Of a stretch of DNA of 6,619 nucleotides, positions 2,449 to 6,619 are shown in pieces. The position numbers and the translations under genes were made by a program. This DNA comes from Patescibacteria group bacterium (GTDB lineage: Bacteria > Patescibacteria > Paceibacteria > Moranbacterales > UBA1568), in the NCBI GenBank assembly GCA_030916685.1, contig JAUPWD010000078.1, positions 1 to 6,619 on the forward strand. The letters are read 5' to 3'. Under the pieces are notes generated by a model. That model did no database searches, had not been told where the DNA came from, and saw only the letters and a list, made by a program, of their open reading frames with translations. Position 1 is the first letter of the stretch. Each line of letters starts with the position of its first letter.

Positions 2449-4731
2449 ATGTATCTCAAGCGTCTCGAACTGAATGGATTCAAATCATTCGCCAATAAAA
2501 CGGTGCTTGATTTTTTGCCTGAGTGTGAGGTAGGAGCGGGGAAAAAATGTGGTATCACTGCGATCGTCGGACCGAACGGTTCGGGGAAGTCGAATGTGGC
2601 GGACGGTATCCGATGGGCCATCGGTGAACAATCATCGAAGAATCTCCGCGGGAAGAAATCCGAAGACGTCATTTTTTCCGGATCAGGGAAAAAGGCACGG
2701 CAGGGGAGCGCGTCGGTTACGCTTCATTTCGATAATTCCGACAAGCGAATTCCCATTGAATATACGGATGTCTCGGTGACGCGTAAGGTATATCGCAGTG
2801 GCGAGAGCGAGTATCTCATCAATGGGAATAAAGTGCGGTTACTCGATGTCGTCGATCTCCTCGCGCGAGCGGGAGTGGGGCGTGACAGCTACTGTGTGAT
2901 CACGCAGGGGATGTCAGATTCGCTCCTCGCAGCGACACCGGTTGAGCGACGATCGCTCTTCGAGGATGCGGCCGGGGTGAAACCGTATCAGATCGAGAAA
3001 GATCGCGCCAAGCGAAAAATGGATTCTTCGCGGGAGAACTTGATTCAAGTGGCGACGCTTCTTTCCGAAATAGAACCGCATTTGAAGCATCTTCGGAGGC
3101 AGGCTGAGAAATTCGCTCAGGCAAAAACGATTGGAGAGCGTCTGCGCGGGAGGCAGATGGAACTCTATGGATTTCTCTGGGCAGAGTTTCATGGTGAACG
3201 TGAACGACTCATGAAGGATCGGGATCGTTCGATGGAGCGGGTGGCGACACTCGATATTGCTGTCGCGGCTTTGCAGAAAGAAACGGAAGCTCTCGCCGGG
3301 ACGATGGAGGAGGATGGATCAATCGATCTTTTGAGCGAGGCGATTGCGAAATTTCGTACAGAAAAGAATGAACGGGAACGGGAATCGGCTGTTATCGATG
3401 GTCGTATTCAAATTGAAGAAGAAAAGAAGAAGGACCGCGAGGAAGTGGCTGTCATCACGGTTGACCTCACATATGTTCGGAGTGCTTTGGAACGGATTCG
3501 CAAGGATCAGGAGATGCTCATCGCGAAGATACTGGATGGAAAAGAAAATCCATCTTCATGGGAGGAGATCGCGAAGGATGCTCAAGTGATAGCGGCATCC
3601 ATTCATGAGCTTGATGAAAAAGCAGGAAAGGGATCGGTCGTGGAGAAGAAGATCATCTCCCTTCCCGAAGCGGAGCGGAAAATTATCGATGAAAAGCTCG
3701 CTGAATTGAATGAGGAGCATGCTCGTCTCAGAAAGATGATGTCGGAGCTTGAAAAAAATATCCTTGAAAAGGAAGAAGAGGTCAGGGTTGCGCGTGAAAA
3801 AGGTCGCGCCGCACGGGAACGATATTTCCATTTGGAGAGGGAGCTTCGCGAGAAAGATCAGTTGCTTCAGGGGGAGAAAGACAGTTTGAATGAGATGAAG
3901 GTGGGTCTCGCGCGTGTGGAAGTGCGAGAAGAAGATCTTATTGCCGAGGTACGGCTCGAATTGAATATGGAACCAGTGAGTCTCACTTGGGATGGCGTAT
4001 CTCGCGATCGAGAGAAGCTTACACGGGAAATCAGTCGATTGAAAGTGGAATCCGAACAGGCAGGTGGTATTGATCCATTGGTGCTCGAGGAATATACCGA
4101 AACGGAAAAACGATTTCAATTCCTCACACAGGAATCGGAAGATTTGCGCAGGGCGATGGAGTCGCTCGATACGGTGATCAAGGAAATGGATACGAAAATC
4201 GATCATGCTTTCGGGGAGGCATTCGAAAATATTTCTCAGGAATTCGAGCGATATTTCCAATTGATTTTCAATGGAGGGAAAGCGGAATTGAAGAAAATCC
4301 GCATTCGTCCTCGTCGGAAAGAAACTGAAGAAGGGGATGAAGAGCAGGGTACCGATGAGGCTCCTGAAGAAGGAGAGCTGGGTATTGAAATCACCGCATG
4401 CCCTCCGGGGAAGCGTATTGAGAGTCTAGCTTCGCTTTCGGGAGGGGAGCGGTCGCTTACTTCGCTCGCGCTTCTCTTCGCGATCATCTCGCATAATCCG
4501 CCGCCATTCGCAGTACTTGATGAAGTGGAGGCTGCTCTTGATGAGGCGAATTCTCGACGCTTCAGTCGTATTCTCCAGGATCTCGGCACATCCACGCAAT
4601 TCATCGCCATTACGCATAATCGTGAGACGATGCGGCAGGCATCGCTTCTCTATGGTGTCACTATGGGTGCTGATGGTGTTTCACAGCTTCTCTCGGTCAA
4701 GCTTGATAAGGCCGAAGCAATCGCGAAATAG
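2449..4731 (+). CDS. smc: Short SMC-type chromosome ATPase without a recognisable hinge domain
   Basis: The 760-residue product begins with the canonical MYLKRLELNGFKSFA. The N-terminal head has Walker A GPNGSGKS (41-48), the Q-loop (Q153 in VITQG) and FEDAAGV (171-177). The C-terminal head has the ABC signature LSGGERSL (663-670), Walker B AVLDEVEAALDEA (688-700) and the switch histidine H723 in ITHNRETM. All ATPase motifs are intact. Charged coiled-coil arms span about 180-355 and 410-600. SMC proteins usually have about 1150-1200 residues, with a ~150-residue globular hinge that dimerises two chains. Here only a ~50-residue link (about 360-410, with GKENPSS and KAGKGS turns) joins the arms, with no hinge glycine motifs and no zinc-hook cysteines. 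An acidic insertion (about 622-644) lies in the C-head. SMC compacts and segregates DNA; partners ScpA/ScpB are not in the window. A Rad50/SbcC-like role is less likely from head motifs. Confidence 0.9.
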   Translation: MYLKRLELNGFKSFANKTVLDFLPECEVGAGKKCGITAIVGPNGSGKSNVADGIRWAIGEQSSKNLRGKKSEDVIFSGSGKKARQGSASVTLHFDNSDKRIPIEYTDVSVTRKVYRSGESEYLINGNKVRLLDVVDLLARAGVGRDSYCVITQGMSDSLLAATPVERRSLFEDAAGVKPYQIEKDRAKRKMDSSRENLIQVATLLSEIEPHLKHLRRQAEKFAQAKTIGERLRGRQMELYGFLWAEFHGERERLMKDRDRSMERVATLDIAVAALQKETEALAGTMEEDGSIDLLSEAIAKFRTEKNERERESAVIDGRIQIEEEKKKDREEVAVITVDLTYVRSALERIRKDQEMLIAKILDGKENPSSWEEIAKDAQVIAASIHELDEKAGKGSVVEKKIISLPEAERKIIDEKLAELNEEHARLRKMMSELEKNILEKEEEVRVAREKGRAARERYFHLERELREKDQLLQGEKDSLNEMKVGLARVEVREEDLIAEVRLELNMEPVSLTWDGVSRDREKLTREISRLKVESEQAGGIDPLVLEEYTETEKRFQFLTQESEDLRRAMESLDTVIKEMDTKIDHAFGEAFENISQEFERYFQLIFNGGKAELKKIRIRPRRKETEEGDEEQGTDEAPEEGELGIEITACPPGKRIESLASLSGGERSLTSLALLFAIISHNPPPFAVLDEVEAALDEANSRRFSRILQDLGTSTQFIAITHNRETMRQASLLYGVTMGADGVSQLLSVKLDKAEAIAK

Positions 4732-4767
4732 GATTCATATCGAAGTCGTGTATGTATTTTGAATAAT

Positions 4768-4912
4768 TGTTTCTTCTTCACTTCTCTTTGCTGCCGTTTG
4801 TCTGCCAGCGCAGACAAACTGAAGTTAAACTCGAAACTTTTTTACCAAGAGTATTGGTAAAAAAGACCGTGCTTTCGAGTTTAAATTCGCATCAAAGAGA
4901 AATGAAGAAACA
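4768..4912. repeat. Nested inverted repeat able to fold as a three-way junction
   Basis: Three helices nest almost without gaps. P1 pairs 4774-4794 with 4889-4909 (19 of 21 positions); a 3-nt slip extends it outward to TGTTTCTTC/GAAGAAACA at 4768 and 4912. P2 pairs 4796-4805 with 4810-4819 (10 bp perfect, loop CAGC). P3 pairs 4821-4836 with 4873-4888 (15 of 16), then 4837-4848 with 4854-4865 (12 bp perfect, loop GAGTA), with a 7-nt bulge ACCGTGC on one side. Only bases 4795 and 4820 are unpaired at the junction. No T-run follows, so it is not a standard terminator. It could be a structured RNA in the smc 3' region, a MITE-like insertion, or a DNA cruciform site. I find no clear target duplication at the edges. 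Confidence 0.75.
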
Positions 4913-4951
4913 TATAAATGAAAGAGTTTATGAAATCAGGATTTGAAATAA

Positions 4952-4957
4952 TATACT
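4952..4957 (+). promoter_or_regulatory. Possible -10 element for the acetyltransferase gene
   Basis: TATACT is identical to the -10 of the smc promoter and lies 20 nt before the ATG at 4978. A -35 is poor: TTATGA at 4928-4933 with an 18-nt spacer is the best I see. A transcript would have a leader of about 14 nt without a Shine-Dalgarno site. Confidence 0.35.
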
Positions 4958-4977
4958 AAAAAATAACTTCTCGTATT

Positions 4978-5598
4978 ATGGAAAAGTTTTCCGCATCTAT
5001 CGAAGGGAAAAAGAAATTTGTTTCTCAGAGAAAATCTGAGGAACCTGATGCCGAACGAATTGAATATTCGTTTAACGTTGCTGTGTACGATGAGAATCAT
5101 ACGAGGATCGGCGCCGTCTCCCTTGAACATCTCAAAGGCATGAATTTATCAGAAAGGATAGGGGAAGTCTTTTATATAAAAGAGATTGAGGTGACTCAGT
5201 CACAAAGAGGTAGGGGAAATGGCTCTGAAATAATCGAAGGTATTAATAGATTTTTAATTTCGCGAGGAAATGCCATCGGAGTGTTAAACGATGGAATAAT
5301 GAAACGAAATGCCGAGAGAGCGCTCTACGGATTGTATGAAAGACACGGATGGAAAGATATTAAGAGCGACAGACGATTGCTTGAGATAGGTAAGAAGTTT
5401 TCCGGTCTTGATTGGCGATCGAAAGTTGACAGGTTTTATGGAGGTAATTGGAAGTATTTTTATCAGGGAAAAGATATTGATGATACTGAATATGAGCGAT
5501 TGTGCTGTGATGCTTTTATCGGAACCGGCTTTTTCTTCAGGGAAAAAGATAAATCGGGTACATTGATGGAGAAAGGAATAAAACAATATGAATCCTGA
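4978..5598 (+). CDS. GNAT-family N-acetyltransferase, substrate unknown
   Basis: The 206-residue product contains the core of the GNAT fold. A beta strand rich in I/E/V leads into the acetyl-CoA pyrophosphate loop QRGRGNGSEI (76-85), matching the R/QxxGxG/A motif A. The following helix is IIEGINRFLISRG (85-97), and ALYGLYERHGWK (115-126) is the usual motif-B helix ending in a strand. These enzymes transfer an acetyl group from acetyl-CoA to an amine; the acceptor cannot be told from sequence. The N-terminal ~25 residues are charged, and ~75 residues beyond the GNAT core (130-206) have no recognised fold and include paired cysteines C176-C177. There is no Shine-Dalgarno site before the ATG. 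Arginine is encoded by AGA, AGG and CGA, unlike the genes upstream, which favour CGC/CGT/CGG. The next gene starts inside its last codons. Confidence 0.75.
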   Translation: MEKFSASIEGKKKFVSQRKSEEPDAERIEYSFNVAVYDENHTRIGAVSLEHLKGMNLSERIGEVFYIKEIEVTQSQRGRGNGSEIIEGINRFLISRGNAIGVLNDGIMKRNAERALYGLYERHGWKDIKSDRRLLEIGKKFSGLDWRSKVDRFYGGNWKYFYQGKDIDDTEYERLCCDAFIGTGFFFREKDKSGTLMEKGIKQYES

Positions 5599-6619
5599 AG
5601 CGCCAAAACCTGTAGTAATAGAAAATAAACCAGAAAACCGAGATACTTTACGGGCAGAGTATTATTCCTTGCTTGAGCGTAGAAAAAAAGTCAATGCTCG
5701 TTTAGGATACCTCATGCAACATGCAAGTCCTGATAATGATCTATTACTGAGTTTGGATAAAGAAAAACACGATGTGCATGTTCGCGCTCAGGAAGTAGGA
5801 CAGAAACTCGGGAAGACTCTGACAGAAATGGATCTCGACGTGATGATGATGGATGGCAACGCTGAAGATTTTGGTCTAGAAGCCCCGATCATTTTTCCTG
5901 AGAACGAGCCAGCGTATCGTAGATATTCAGAAACCTTATTTGAGGTAATGAAACTTGTGGAAGATGTTGGCGACAACCCAGATAAACTGTCTCTATTCCG
6001 GGAGCGACTCAGAAAATATAAAAATCAAGTGTATCCAAAAGCAAGGGCGGATTTGCCACTTTGGACACCTGGAGAGACGAACTTACAATTAGACGTGTTA
6101 ATGAAAACCAACAAACCGAGTGGTTATTTTCCACCGGTGGATATCTTAGCGGATAACCATCCGATATTGCCGAATGAGGTGGTACTCATTTATGGTGTGG
6201 AGAGATTTACTTATGCCGATCAGGAAGGAAAAGTAGGTTATGACTATGACTGTCATCAGCAGAGTGTATTTTCTGCAAATTTTTCTAAAAGGATAGGTGG
6301 TCTAGTAAATTTAACCGAGGACTTTCCTGCCAATGTTCGAATGTTCGCTAGCGGAGGACTTGCTTTTCATGGTTCTCATCGGGTGTATGGCGTAGCCGTT
6401 GATCGAGACCGTCTCGTCGAAATAGTGAAAAAAATCAAGGGCAACAGAAGTAAATATTGGACAACAATTCATGATGATAGAGATGCGCGGGAGACAGTGT
6501 GCGTAGATCCAGACTTTAGTGATCCAAACATCGAGTATGTTGAACCGGCCGAGAAAAAGGCAATTCCACTTTATCTTCGGCGTGGCATGGACTATGGTGT
6601 ATCAACGGATCAAGAAAAA
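5588..6619 (+). CDS. Unrecognised protein, 3' end cut off by the window
   Basis: An uninterrupted frame from ATG 5588 to the last base gives 344 residues with no stop. I do not recognise it. The start overlaps the acetyltransferase gene by 11 nt in another frame and has AAGGA at 5573-5577, 10 nt upstream, so the two are probably cotranscribed and coupled. Residues 15-80 look helical and charged (AEYYSLLERRKKVNARL). Residues 105-150 form a second helical stretch. From about 195 the chain turns to alternating hydrophobic strands (EVVLIYGVERFTYAD 197-211, RVYGVAVDRDRLVEIVKKIKG 265-285) suggestive of a mixed alpha/beta domain. There is no signal peptide or membrane segment. The A+T-rich composition matches the acetyltransferase. 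The pair may be an accessory module; the function is open. Confidence 0.75.
   Translation, partial: MNPEAPKPVVIENKPENRDTLRAEYYSLLERRKKVNARLGYLMQHASPDNDLLLSLDKEKHDVHVRAQEVGQKLGKTLTEMDLDVMMMDGNAEDFGLEAPIIFPENEPAYRRYSETLFEVMKLVEDVGDNPDKLSLFRERLRKYKNQVYPKARADLPLWTPGETNLQLDVLMKTNKPSGYFPPVDILADNHPILPNEVVLIYGVERFTYADQEGKVGYDYDCHQQSVFSANFSKRIGGLVNLTEDFPANVRMFASGGLAFHGSHRVYGVAVDRDRLVEIVKKIKGNRSKYWTTIHDDRDARETVCVDPDFSDPNIEYVEPAEKKAIPLYLRRGMDYGVSTDQEK

Follow-up and report, generated by a model that had tools for sequence, protein, structure and literature searches.

The hairpin behind smc and its surroundings

What is the long hairpin that stands directly behind smc in the window, by which we mean the whole 6,619-nt stretch analyzed here? 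The initial annotation described positions 4768-4912 as a nested inverted repeat forming a tight three-way junction and considered so much exact nested pairing very unlikely to arise by chance. The repeat is real and beyond chance, with its arms where that annotation had placed them (none of 200 and none of 1000 shuffles equaled the fold). The self-complementary arms lie at 4774-4794/4889-4909 (I1) and 4821-4836/4873-4888 (I2), with further arms of the same hairpin at 4791-4805/4810-4824 (I3) and 4837-4848/4854-4865 (I5). Positions 4760-4920 have a minimum free energy of -65 kcal/mol (z -10.1), which none of 200 dinucleotide shuffles matched, and the whole gap between the flanking genes (4732-4977) folds at -79.2 against a shuffle mean of -42.3 (sd 4.4; best shuffle -61.9, n=1000). 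By GC-corrected folding energy, the hairpin ranks second among 18,392 150-nt windows drawn from this stretch and 45 smc loci of relatives; a fold-back scan with 10-bp seeds, which overlooks the window hairpin itself, was excluded from this ranking. Several other strong hairpins in the ranking resemble MITEs of different sequence.

What stands out is the nesting. Exact 12-bp inverted repeats, part of that argument, are by themselves not rare: the window holds two, and 6 of 200 shuffles hold at least two. The statement that the hairpin is not a terminator is correct, as no T-run follows on either strand and the stem-then-T-run arrangement of an intrinsic terminator is absent. The minus strand gives the better fold (-69.4 against -64.2 for the plus strand, over 145 nt). 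Read from 4912 to 4768, it runs through the outer helix P1, a first hairpin with a 7-nt one-sided bulge, a second hairpin and the return of P1, with the following parts and neighbors:

4768..4912, minus (probable strand under selection, read 4912 to 4768): whole element, matched at full length by covariance models R1-R3
4889..4910, minus: outer helix P1, the arm that is 5' on the folded strand; the helix has 21 bp when the minus strand is folded
4773..4794, minus: outer helix P1, 3' arm on the folded strand, from the minus-strand fold
4873..4888, minus: 5' arm of the 15-bp lower stem in the first hairpin, pairing with 4821-4836
4866..4872, minus: conserved one-sided bulge GCACGGT (GCANGGU in the family, with N absent in some copies)
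4854..4865, minus: 5' arm of the 12-bp apical stem in the first hairpin, pairing with 4837-4848
4837..4848, minus: 3' arm of this apical stem, from the minus-strand fold
4821..4836, minus: lower stem of the first hairpin, 3' arm, from the minus-strand fold
4796..4819, minus: second hairpin, 10-bp stem, 4810-4819 pairing with 4796-4805
4805..4810, minus: conserved loop CGCTGG (CGCNGG in the family), which can be closed by pairing of its first C with its last G
2449..4731, plus: smc, with its stop codon 37 nt before the element start
4978..5598, plus: GNAT-like gene, downstream

The window derives from a Moranbacteria-like genome. Its smc protein is at most 61% identical to those of 80 relatives' loci, the top ones assigned to Candidatus Moranbacteria/Moraniibacteriota, and the closest relatives with long enough contigs share the gene order rpmF-nusB-rnc-smc. 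Behind smc, rpsP (S16) follows within about 650 bp in 17 of the 19 relatives' loci that have a full-length smc match at ≥56% identity (L001-L017, L025, and L049); where these relatives have rpsP, the window has the inverted repeat, the GNAT-like gene, and a gene of unknown kind. Thus, the border that the initial annotation saw behind smc is real, with two rare genes beyond it, but the element is not a general border marker, since other copies adjoin ordinary genes.

The two genes at 4978-6619 overlap and encode the GNAT-like protein and a second product that belongs to no known family and has 371 aa in a close relative. For each product, a search of 5.8 billion proteins gave only three matches, of which one is nearly identical to the window's own protein, and neither gene is matched in the 128 genomes of the order. 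A defense-system reading was rejected, as the neighbor genes and their relatives gave only matches with E above 0.01 in PADLOC and PHROGs, and a retron reading was dropped with no reverse transcriptase among the six window proteins (Pfam, E 1e-3). The neighbor gene was not found in the viral contigs searched, and the structure models of the neighbor proteins are too poor for use (pLDDT 42 and 39). On the other side of smc, three small ORFs at 1789-2290, between rnc and smc, are unmatched at E 1e-4 in 48 related loci.

Other repeats were seen in the relatives' loci. At L010:7399-7596, behind smc, a run of N is flanked by the arms of a long perfect inverted repeat, which is probably a scaffolding artifact. 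Alike long hairpins (CCGTCCACAGC ... CTGTGG) occupy a matching locus position in two genomes (L035:2177-2302 and L031:2161-2310) and have no Rfam match at the gathering score. MITE-like repeats with ends of TCATTGCGAG-, TCATCCCGAG-, or TCATTCTGAG-type occur at L014:9181, L036:4421, L039:4531, and L019:3631, and a palindrome at L020:12511-12603, with arms that start GGTTCGAATCC like a tRNA 3' end, is a possible integration scar.

A dispersed, covarying hairpin family

Plain sequence searches returned no clear relative of the element, and plain DNA similarity gave no match in plasmids or phages; two patterns were also unmatched in viral contigs. Short BLAST pieces (E ≤0.05) occur in 57 of the 128 genomes of the order, and the best of them (28-38 nt) were discarded as lying within genes read as ftsK or cysS, or in an inverted repeat of genome G100. 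The latter, a near-perfect repeat of ~195 bp (L106:1195-1389 and 3111-3303), flanks three ORFs on a short contig and is a transposon or an assembly product. The palindrome of the second hairpin was tried as a known repeat and likewise discarded: it is found in one of 383 genomes at ≤2 mismatches, and no like hairpin recurs in the loci.

The initial annotation had proposed to look in related genomes for the element and for compensatory changes with a covariance model, and this search did find further copies in other genomes. In the 128 genomes of the order, model R1, built from the window copy as its single sequence, found five full-length relatives (E 8e-14 to 2e-7), all of them in 2 genomes; it matched neither the other 126 nor the 45 relatives' smc loci. 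Model R2 (six sequences) matched 7 of the 128 genomes at E ≤0.1 and found two copies in relatives' smc loci (L046:287-408 and L006:3680-3821), neither of them behind smc; together with the blank result of R1, this means that no examined relative has a copy at the window's place. Model R3 (17 sequences) gave at least 64 matches in at least 10 of the 128 genomes of the order (E ≤0.01), and it matched at least 65 of 383 genomes of the class (E ≤0.01) and at least 8 of 295 genomes of the phylum (E ≤0.001), where at most 26, 8, and 11 candidates per genome were scored in the order, class, and phylum, the three genome sets overlap, and the E-values, like those of the other models, come from a shortened calibration. 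The 118, 318, and 287 genomes without an R3 match (order, class, and phylum) are the nearest thing to a negative control. Relatives were found with pairing and some letters in the model, and pair and motif counts lean towards the model; two copies from genome G006 were already among the BLAST matches before any model (E 0.16, not significant). The R3 matches per genome in the order reach 12 among the matches listed, and in a 939-kb contig of genome G083, a scan for the motifs alone gave 10 places against 11 model matches (E <1e-3).

The window hairpin is one copy of a dispersed hairpin family, ~120-170 nt in length, in Patescibacteria-type genomes, the carriers presumably being Patescibacteria themselves. 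The family is apparently undescribed so far; we found no report of one in open PMC text. Rfam 15 gave nothing at the gathering score over the window. On positions 4700-5000, seven weak matches appeared at E ≤5, the best being MIR6459 (E 0.006, 23 of 100 bits) and RUF1 (E 0.013, 24 of 70 bits). The loci of the five relatives gave only a T-box beside L134 (E ≤1), and among 12 loci at E ≤10, the only matches over elements were anti-hemB (E 1.1) and STnc560 (E 8.4). With no Rfam family at the gathering score, no known ribozyme class is recognized.

The stems of the family are free in sequence yet remain paired. Between the window and its five first relatives, 92% of cells are paired and 32 of 58 pairs changed on both sides, with a covariation of 0.492 against 0.156 in shuffled and at most 0.121 in slid controls. 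Covariation is 0.811 in 17 sequences (0.209 shuffled, ≤0.185 slid), where 52 of 54 pairs change on both sides, and 0.934 in 61 copies (0.211 shuffled, ≤0.200 slid), in alignments that were fitted to the model. Two of the five measures reach saturation in the 61-sequence set: 185 of 500 shuffles equal the observed pair types, and 3 of 500 equal the number of pairs changed on both sides. The compensatory changes that had been proposed as a check are thus present among the homologs above both types of control, as in a covarying structured element. Stem lengths differ widely among copies: the 12-bp apical stem of the window copy is longer than those of the five first relatives, and like copies in genome G144 have different second-hairpin stems, each of them paired. 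One copy (L150:1501-1658, genome G077) has an extra 18-bp palindrome (ATCCGCCAGCTGGCGGAT) in its second hairpin compared with the paralogs L142 and L148.

Unpaired motifs, folded strand, and placement of copies

The folded unit is a three-way junction composed of a long P1, a hairpin with the GCANGGU bulge, and a hairpin with the CGCNGG loop. We surveyed it in an aligned set of 123 distinct places (128 alignment rows), which is a subset of the R2 and R3 matches. On the folded strand, GCANGG is found in the 5' half at 105 of the 123 places and CGCNGG in the 3' half at 112, with both at 95; on the opposite strand, the counts are 4, 5, and 1. A motif is absent in its strict form at 28 of the 123 places, one of which (L226) is without both. 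The bulge N is U in 85 of the 105 copies even though the window, the sole sequence behind the first model, has C; since later models included U-bearing copies, some pull to U is possible. The lengths of the stems from the junction to the two motifs are uncorrelated (r -0.02 in 95 copies). Beyond the match, GCGA stands just before in 14 of 122 and GAGC just behind in 18 of 122, with both in 8 (shifted controls, 2 and 3). These flanks, seen in genomes G144, G187, G435, and G446, would allow two G-C pairs plus tandem G.A pairs.

In 58 of 61 copies, the better fold is that of the strand complementary to the model and to the window plus strand. Over 122 sequences, the non-Watson-Crick cells of the model strand include 268 A.C against 124 G.T, and 299 T.C/C.T against 65 A.G/G.A. 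Since A.C and T.C on the model strand are G.U and G.A on the opposite strand, where such pairs are commonly tolerated, the folded strand under selection is probably the window minus strand, read from 4912 to 4768. Taken by sequence, 78 of the 122 lean to the minus type, 25 lean to the opposite, and 19 tie, where copies in one genome are not independent and binomial values for the strand are thus optimistic.

Copies are mostly intergenic, with 17 of the 123 places inside an ORF of ≥80 aa by a crude rule. Based on neighbors assigned by a longest-ORF rule, both neighboring genes are antisense to the folded strand at 61 places and both are sense at 20; relative to the folded strand, 17 places lie between convergent and 13 between divergent genes, and the rest are one-sided in their sequence stretch. 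On the 3' side of the folded strand, 81 of 116 neighbors are antisense, with stop codons a median of 24 nt away; on the 5' side, 79 neighbors are antisense, with starts a median of 79 nt away. The elements face 119 gene 3' ends and 114 gene 5' ends, nearly equal numbers, so it is solely this difference in distance that would place them behind stop codons. Neighbors named from their translations are smc, uvrA, ychF and groEL, murD, SUF genes and a ferredoxin, and an anaerobic reductase activator followed by a T-box and ileS; in G083, they include miaA, metG, and typA. The folded strand has no clear bias relative to GC skew in G083 (6 one way, 4 the other, and 1 undecided). Element ends show no enrichment of promoters (TATAAT-type, 0.48 and 0.43 on the two strands of 122 places) or of T-runs within 25 nt (0.16 and 0.14 of the 122 places), so an independent transcript is not indicated on either strand. 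Inverted pairs of neighboring elements occur at L139:650-779/821-957 and L153:1349-1480/1499-1653, in opposite arrangements.

Several observations bear on mobility. In 186 of 256 copy-copy alignments, the homology breaks off close to the two ends of the element (from 25 nt inside to 12 nt outside), copies L227 and L228 are 99.3% alike over 148 nt, and G083 has three copies ~97% alike at 80, 795, and 896 kb. In the 18 nt outside the shared core, the same-side score of like copies averages 9.1 against 8.6 for shuffled partners; within a copy, these outer flanks pair with each other at a mean of 13.8 against 8.6 shuffled, and 18 of 49 exceed the 95th percentile. Orthologous sites with and without the element were found (L156 and L162 vs. 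L303; L164 vs. L265), with flanks that are 74-85% alike and place the insertion point only approximately. Other sites are shared: L132 and L147 lie before the same ferredoxin-like gene and L158 and L165 at one orthologous site, a pattern as compatible with a retained function as with a parasite. In genome G446 (L199-L203), five aligned copies lie inside a ~233-bp MITE with inverted ends GGGTAAAGTYYGA... and ~7-bp direct repeats, which by eye are 7 bp in four of the five and 6 of 7 in the fifth. Across the 123 places, direct repeats at the ends reach ≥4 bases at 17 (6.9 expected), ≥5 at 6 (1.6 expected), ≥6 at 3 (0.4 expected), and ≥7 at none. In the 939-kb contig of G083, a crude scan for motifs, which is a weak test, found no Y1-type transposase or tyrosine recombinase, and the four candidates of its Y1 regex were read as other proteins.

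Known systems and competing explanations

The attC sites of integrons lie behind ORFs, are free in sequence, and carry the box sequence GTT..AAC. They are imperfect palindromes whose bottom strand is folded and active, with unpaired features that set the strand (PMC8946536, excerpt), and in our family too, the strand antisense to the genes folds better than the gene-sense strand. The family differs in having no cassette array, a place beside housekeeping genes, a three-way junction, and no common end sequence. The copies read share no GTT..AAC ends corresponding to R and L boxes, and the crude regex scan of G083 gave no tyrosine recombinase. REPs, which are shorter than the present family, offer a second comparison. 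In the REP/REPIN-TnpA_REP (RAYT) system, the proposed mover of dispersed intergenic palindromes is an enzyme that acts on single strands (PMC8266576, PMC6006769, PMC3116915; excerpts), usually with above 100 REPs per genome (PMC2817692, excerpt), whereas the family has at most 12 per genome among the matches listed and the crude scan of G083 found no Y1 enzyme. By these tests, the family appears to belong to neither attC nor REP, though these two are the nearest working models. MITEs (Correia/NEMIS, ERIC, and RUP) are ~100-200 nt, non-coding, intergenic, stably folded, and present in several copies (PMC2229807, PMC10969869; excerpts). Our family is likewise small, multi-copy, non-coding, and intergenic, but its stems covary and carry conserved unpaired motifs, its target duplications are few, and no terminal inverted repeat is shared family-wide, such repeats being conserved in G446. 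In twister-sister ribozymes, too, the conserved residues are distributed over two parts of a junction, one internal loop and one hairpin loop (PMC5660989, excerpt); compared with small self-cleaving ribozymes, the family is without an Rfam match at the cut-off, and ribozyme activity is putative.

The initial annotation had left three options, a structured RNA, a MITE-like element, and a recombination or cruciform site; its interpretation is partly supported, and both the unpaired motifs and the strand had been missed. Our own reading, held tentatively and just short of an even balance, is that the window element belongs to its dispersed family as a non-autonomous mobile hairpin that is recognized as a folded single strand, an account that fits best because of the strand, the sharp ends, the free stems, and the patchy presence. 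We infer that a trans-acting protein would recognize one strand, folded as single-stranded DNA (or RNA), via the bulge and loop, and that the same protein would move or copy the unit into intergenic gaps, as IntI does with attC or TnpA_REP with REP. The palindrome, which would also lie in the 3'-UTR of the smc transcript, could protect that message or be cut by RNase III; this would be a side effect. Several points count against the mobile hairpin: the crude scan of G083 gave no partner enzyme, direct repeats at the ends are above chance but uncommon, the folded strand in G083 has no clear GC-skew bias, the elements face gene 3' and 5' ends in similar numbers, some sites are shared, and stem lengths differ widely. 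The main rival, which we judge unlikely but take seriously, is a structured RNA from the window minus strand, either a small RNA or a self-cleaving ribozyme, in which bulge and loop would dock across the junction and which would have spread by duplication and hitch-hiking in MITEs. It fits the unpaired motifs equally well: two of them are conserved on different helices, covariation comes with G.U- and G.A-type cells on one strand, many copies have no fixed neighbor gene, and in twister-sister, the conserved internal and hairpin loops meet (PMC5660989, excerpt). However, such an RNA is without a transcription signature, since neither strand has an excess of TATAAT or T-runs at the element ends, it corresponds to no Rfam family at the gathering score, and the variable, uncorrelated stem lengths to the motifs give no sign of strict docking geometry.

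The remaining explanations account for parts of the evidence. Behind smc and other genes, the element could act on the sense message (window plus) from its 3'-UTR, as an mRNA stabilizer, RNase III site, or weak transcription barrier; we consider this improbable, as the non-Watson-Crick pattern indicates the other strand, the other strand folds better in nearly all copies compared, and 35 of 116 places are reversed on that side, even though the preceding co-directional gene ends close by in the other 81, the plus strand also folds strongly, and RNase III-cut MITE RNAs are known (PMC10969869, excerpt). That the outer 18 nt differ between like copies yet pair within a copy, with no terminal sequence common to the copies read, makes it very improbable that the family is a classical MITE whose terminal inverted repeats are acted on by a DDE transposase and whose internal structure arose by chance; its small size, copy number, and mostly intergenic placement would agree with this, as would the inverted ends and direct repeats in G446 and the mild family-wide excess of short direct repeats. 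A neutral DNA palindrome, with arms corrected by template switching that mimics covariation, would explain the swapped stems in like copies (five from G144 plus L195). We give it hardly any credence, because the 7-nt bulge should then be erased, there would be no reason for strand asymmetry or a fixed loop, and the unpaired motifs are conserved between distant genomes.

To our knowledge, few mobile elements or non-coding RNAs have been described from Patescibacteria, whose genomes are very small. A covarying multi-copy family with two near-fixed motifs, in at least 65 of 383 genomes of the class, points to an unknown enzyme or RNA activity, one that is directly testable with short synthetic molecules. 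It is possible, though somewhat less likely than not, that the family represents a new class of mobile element read as a single strand, or a new class of self-cleaving ribozyme, that has spread through the ultra-small Patescibacteria. If so, the stems would be freely exchangeable, and the information would reside in the GCANGGU bulge and the CGCNGG loop, held by the three-way junction.
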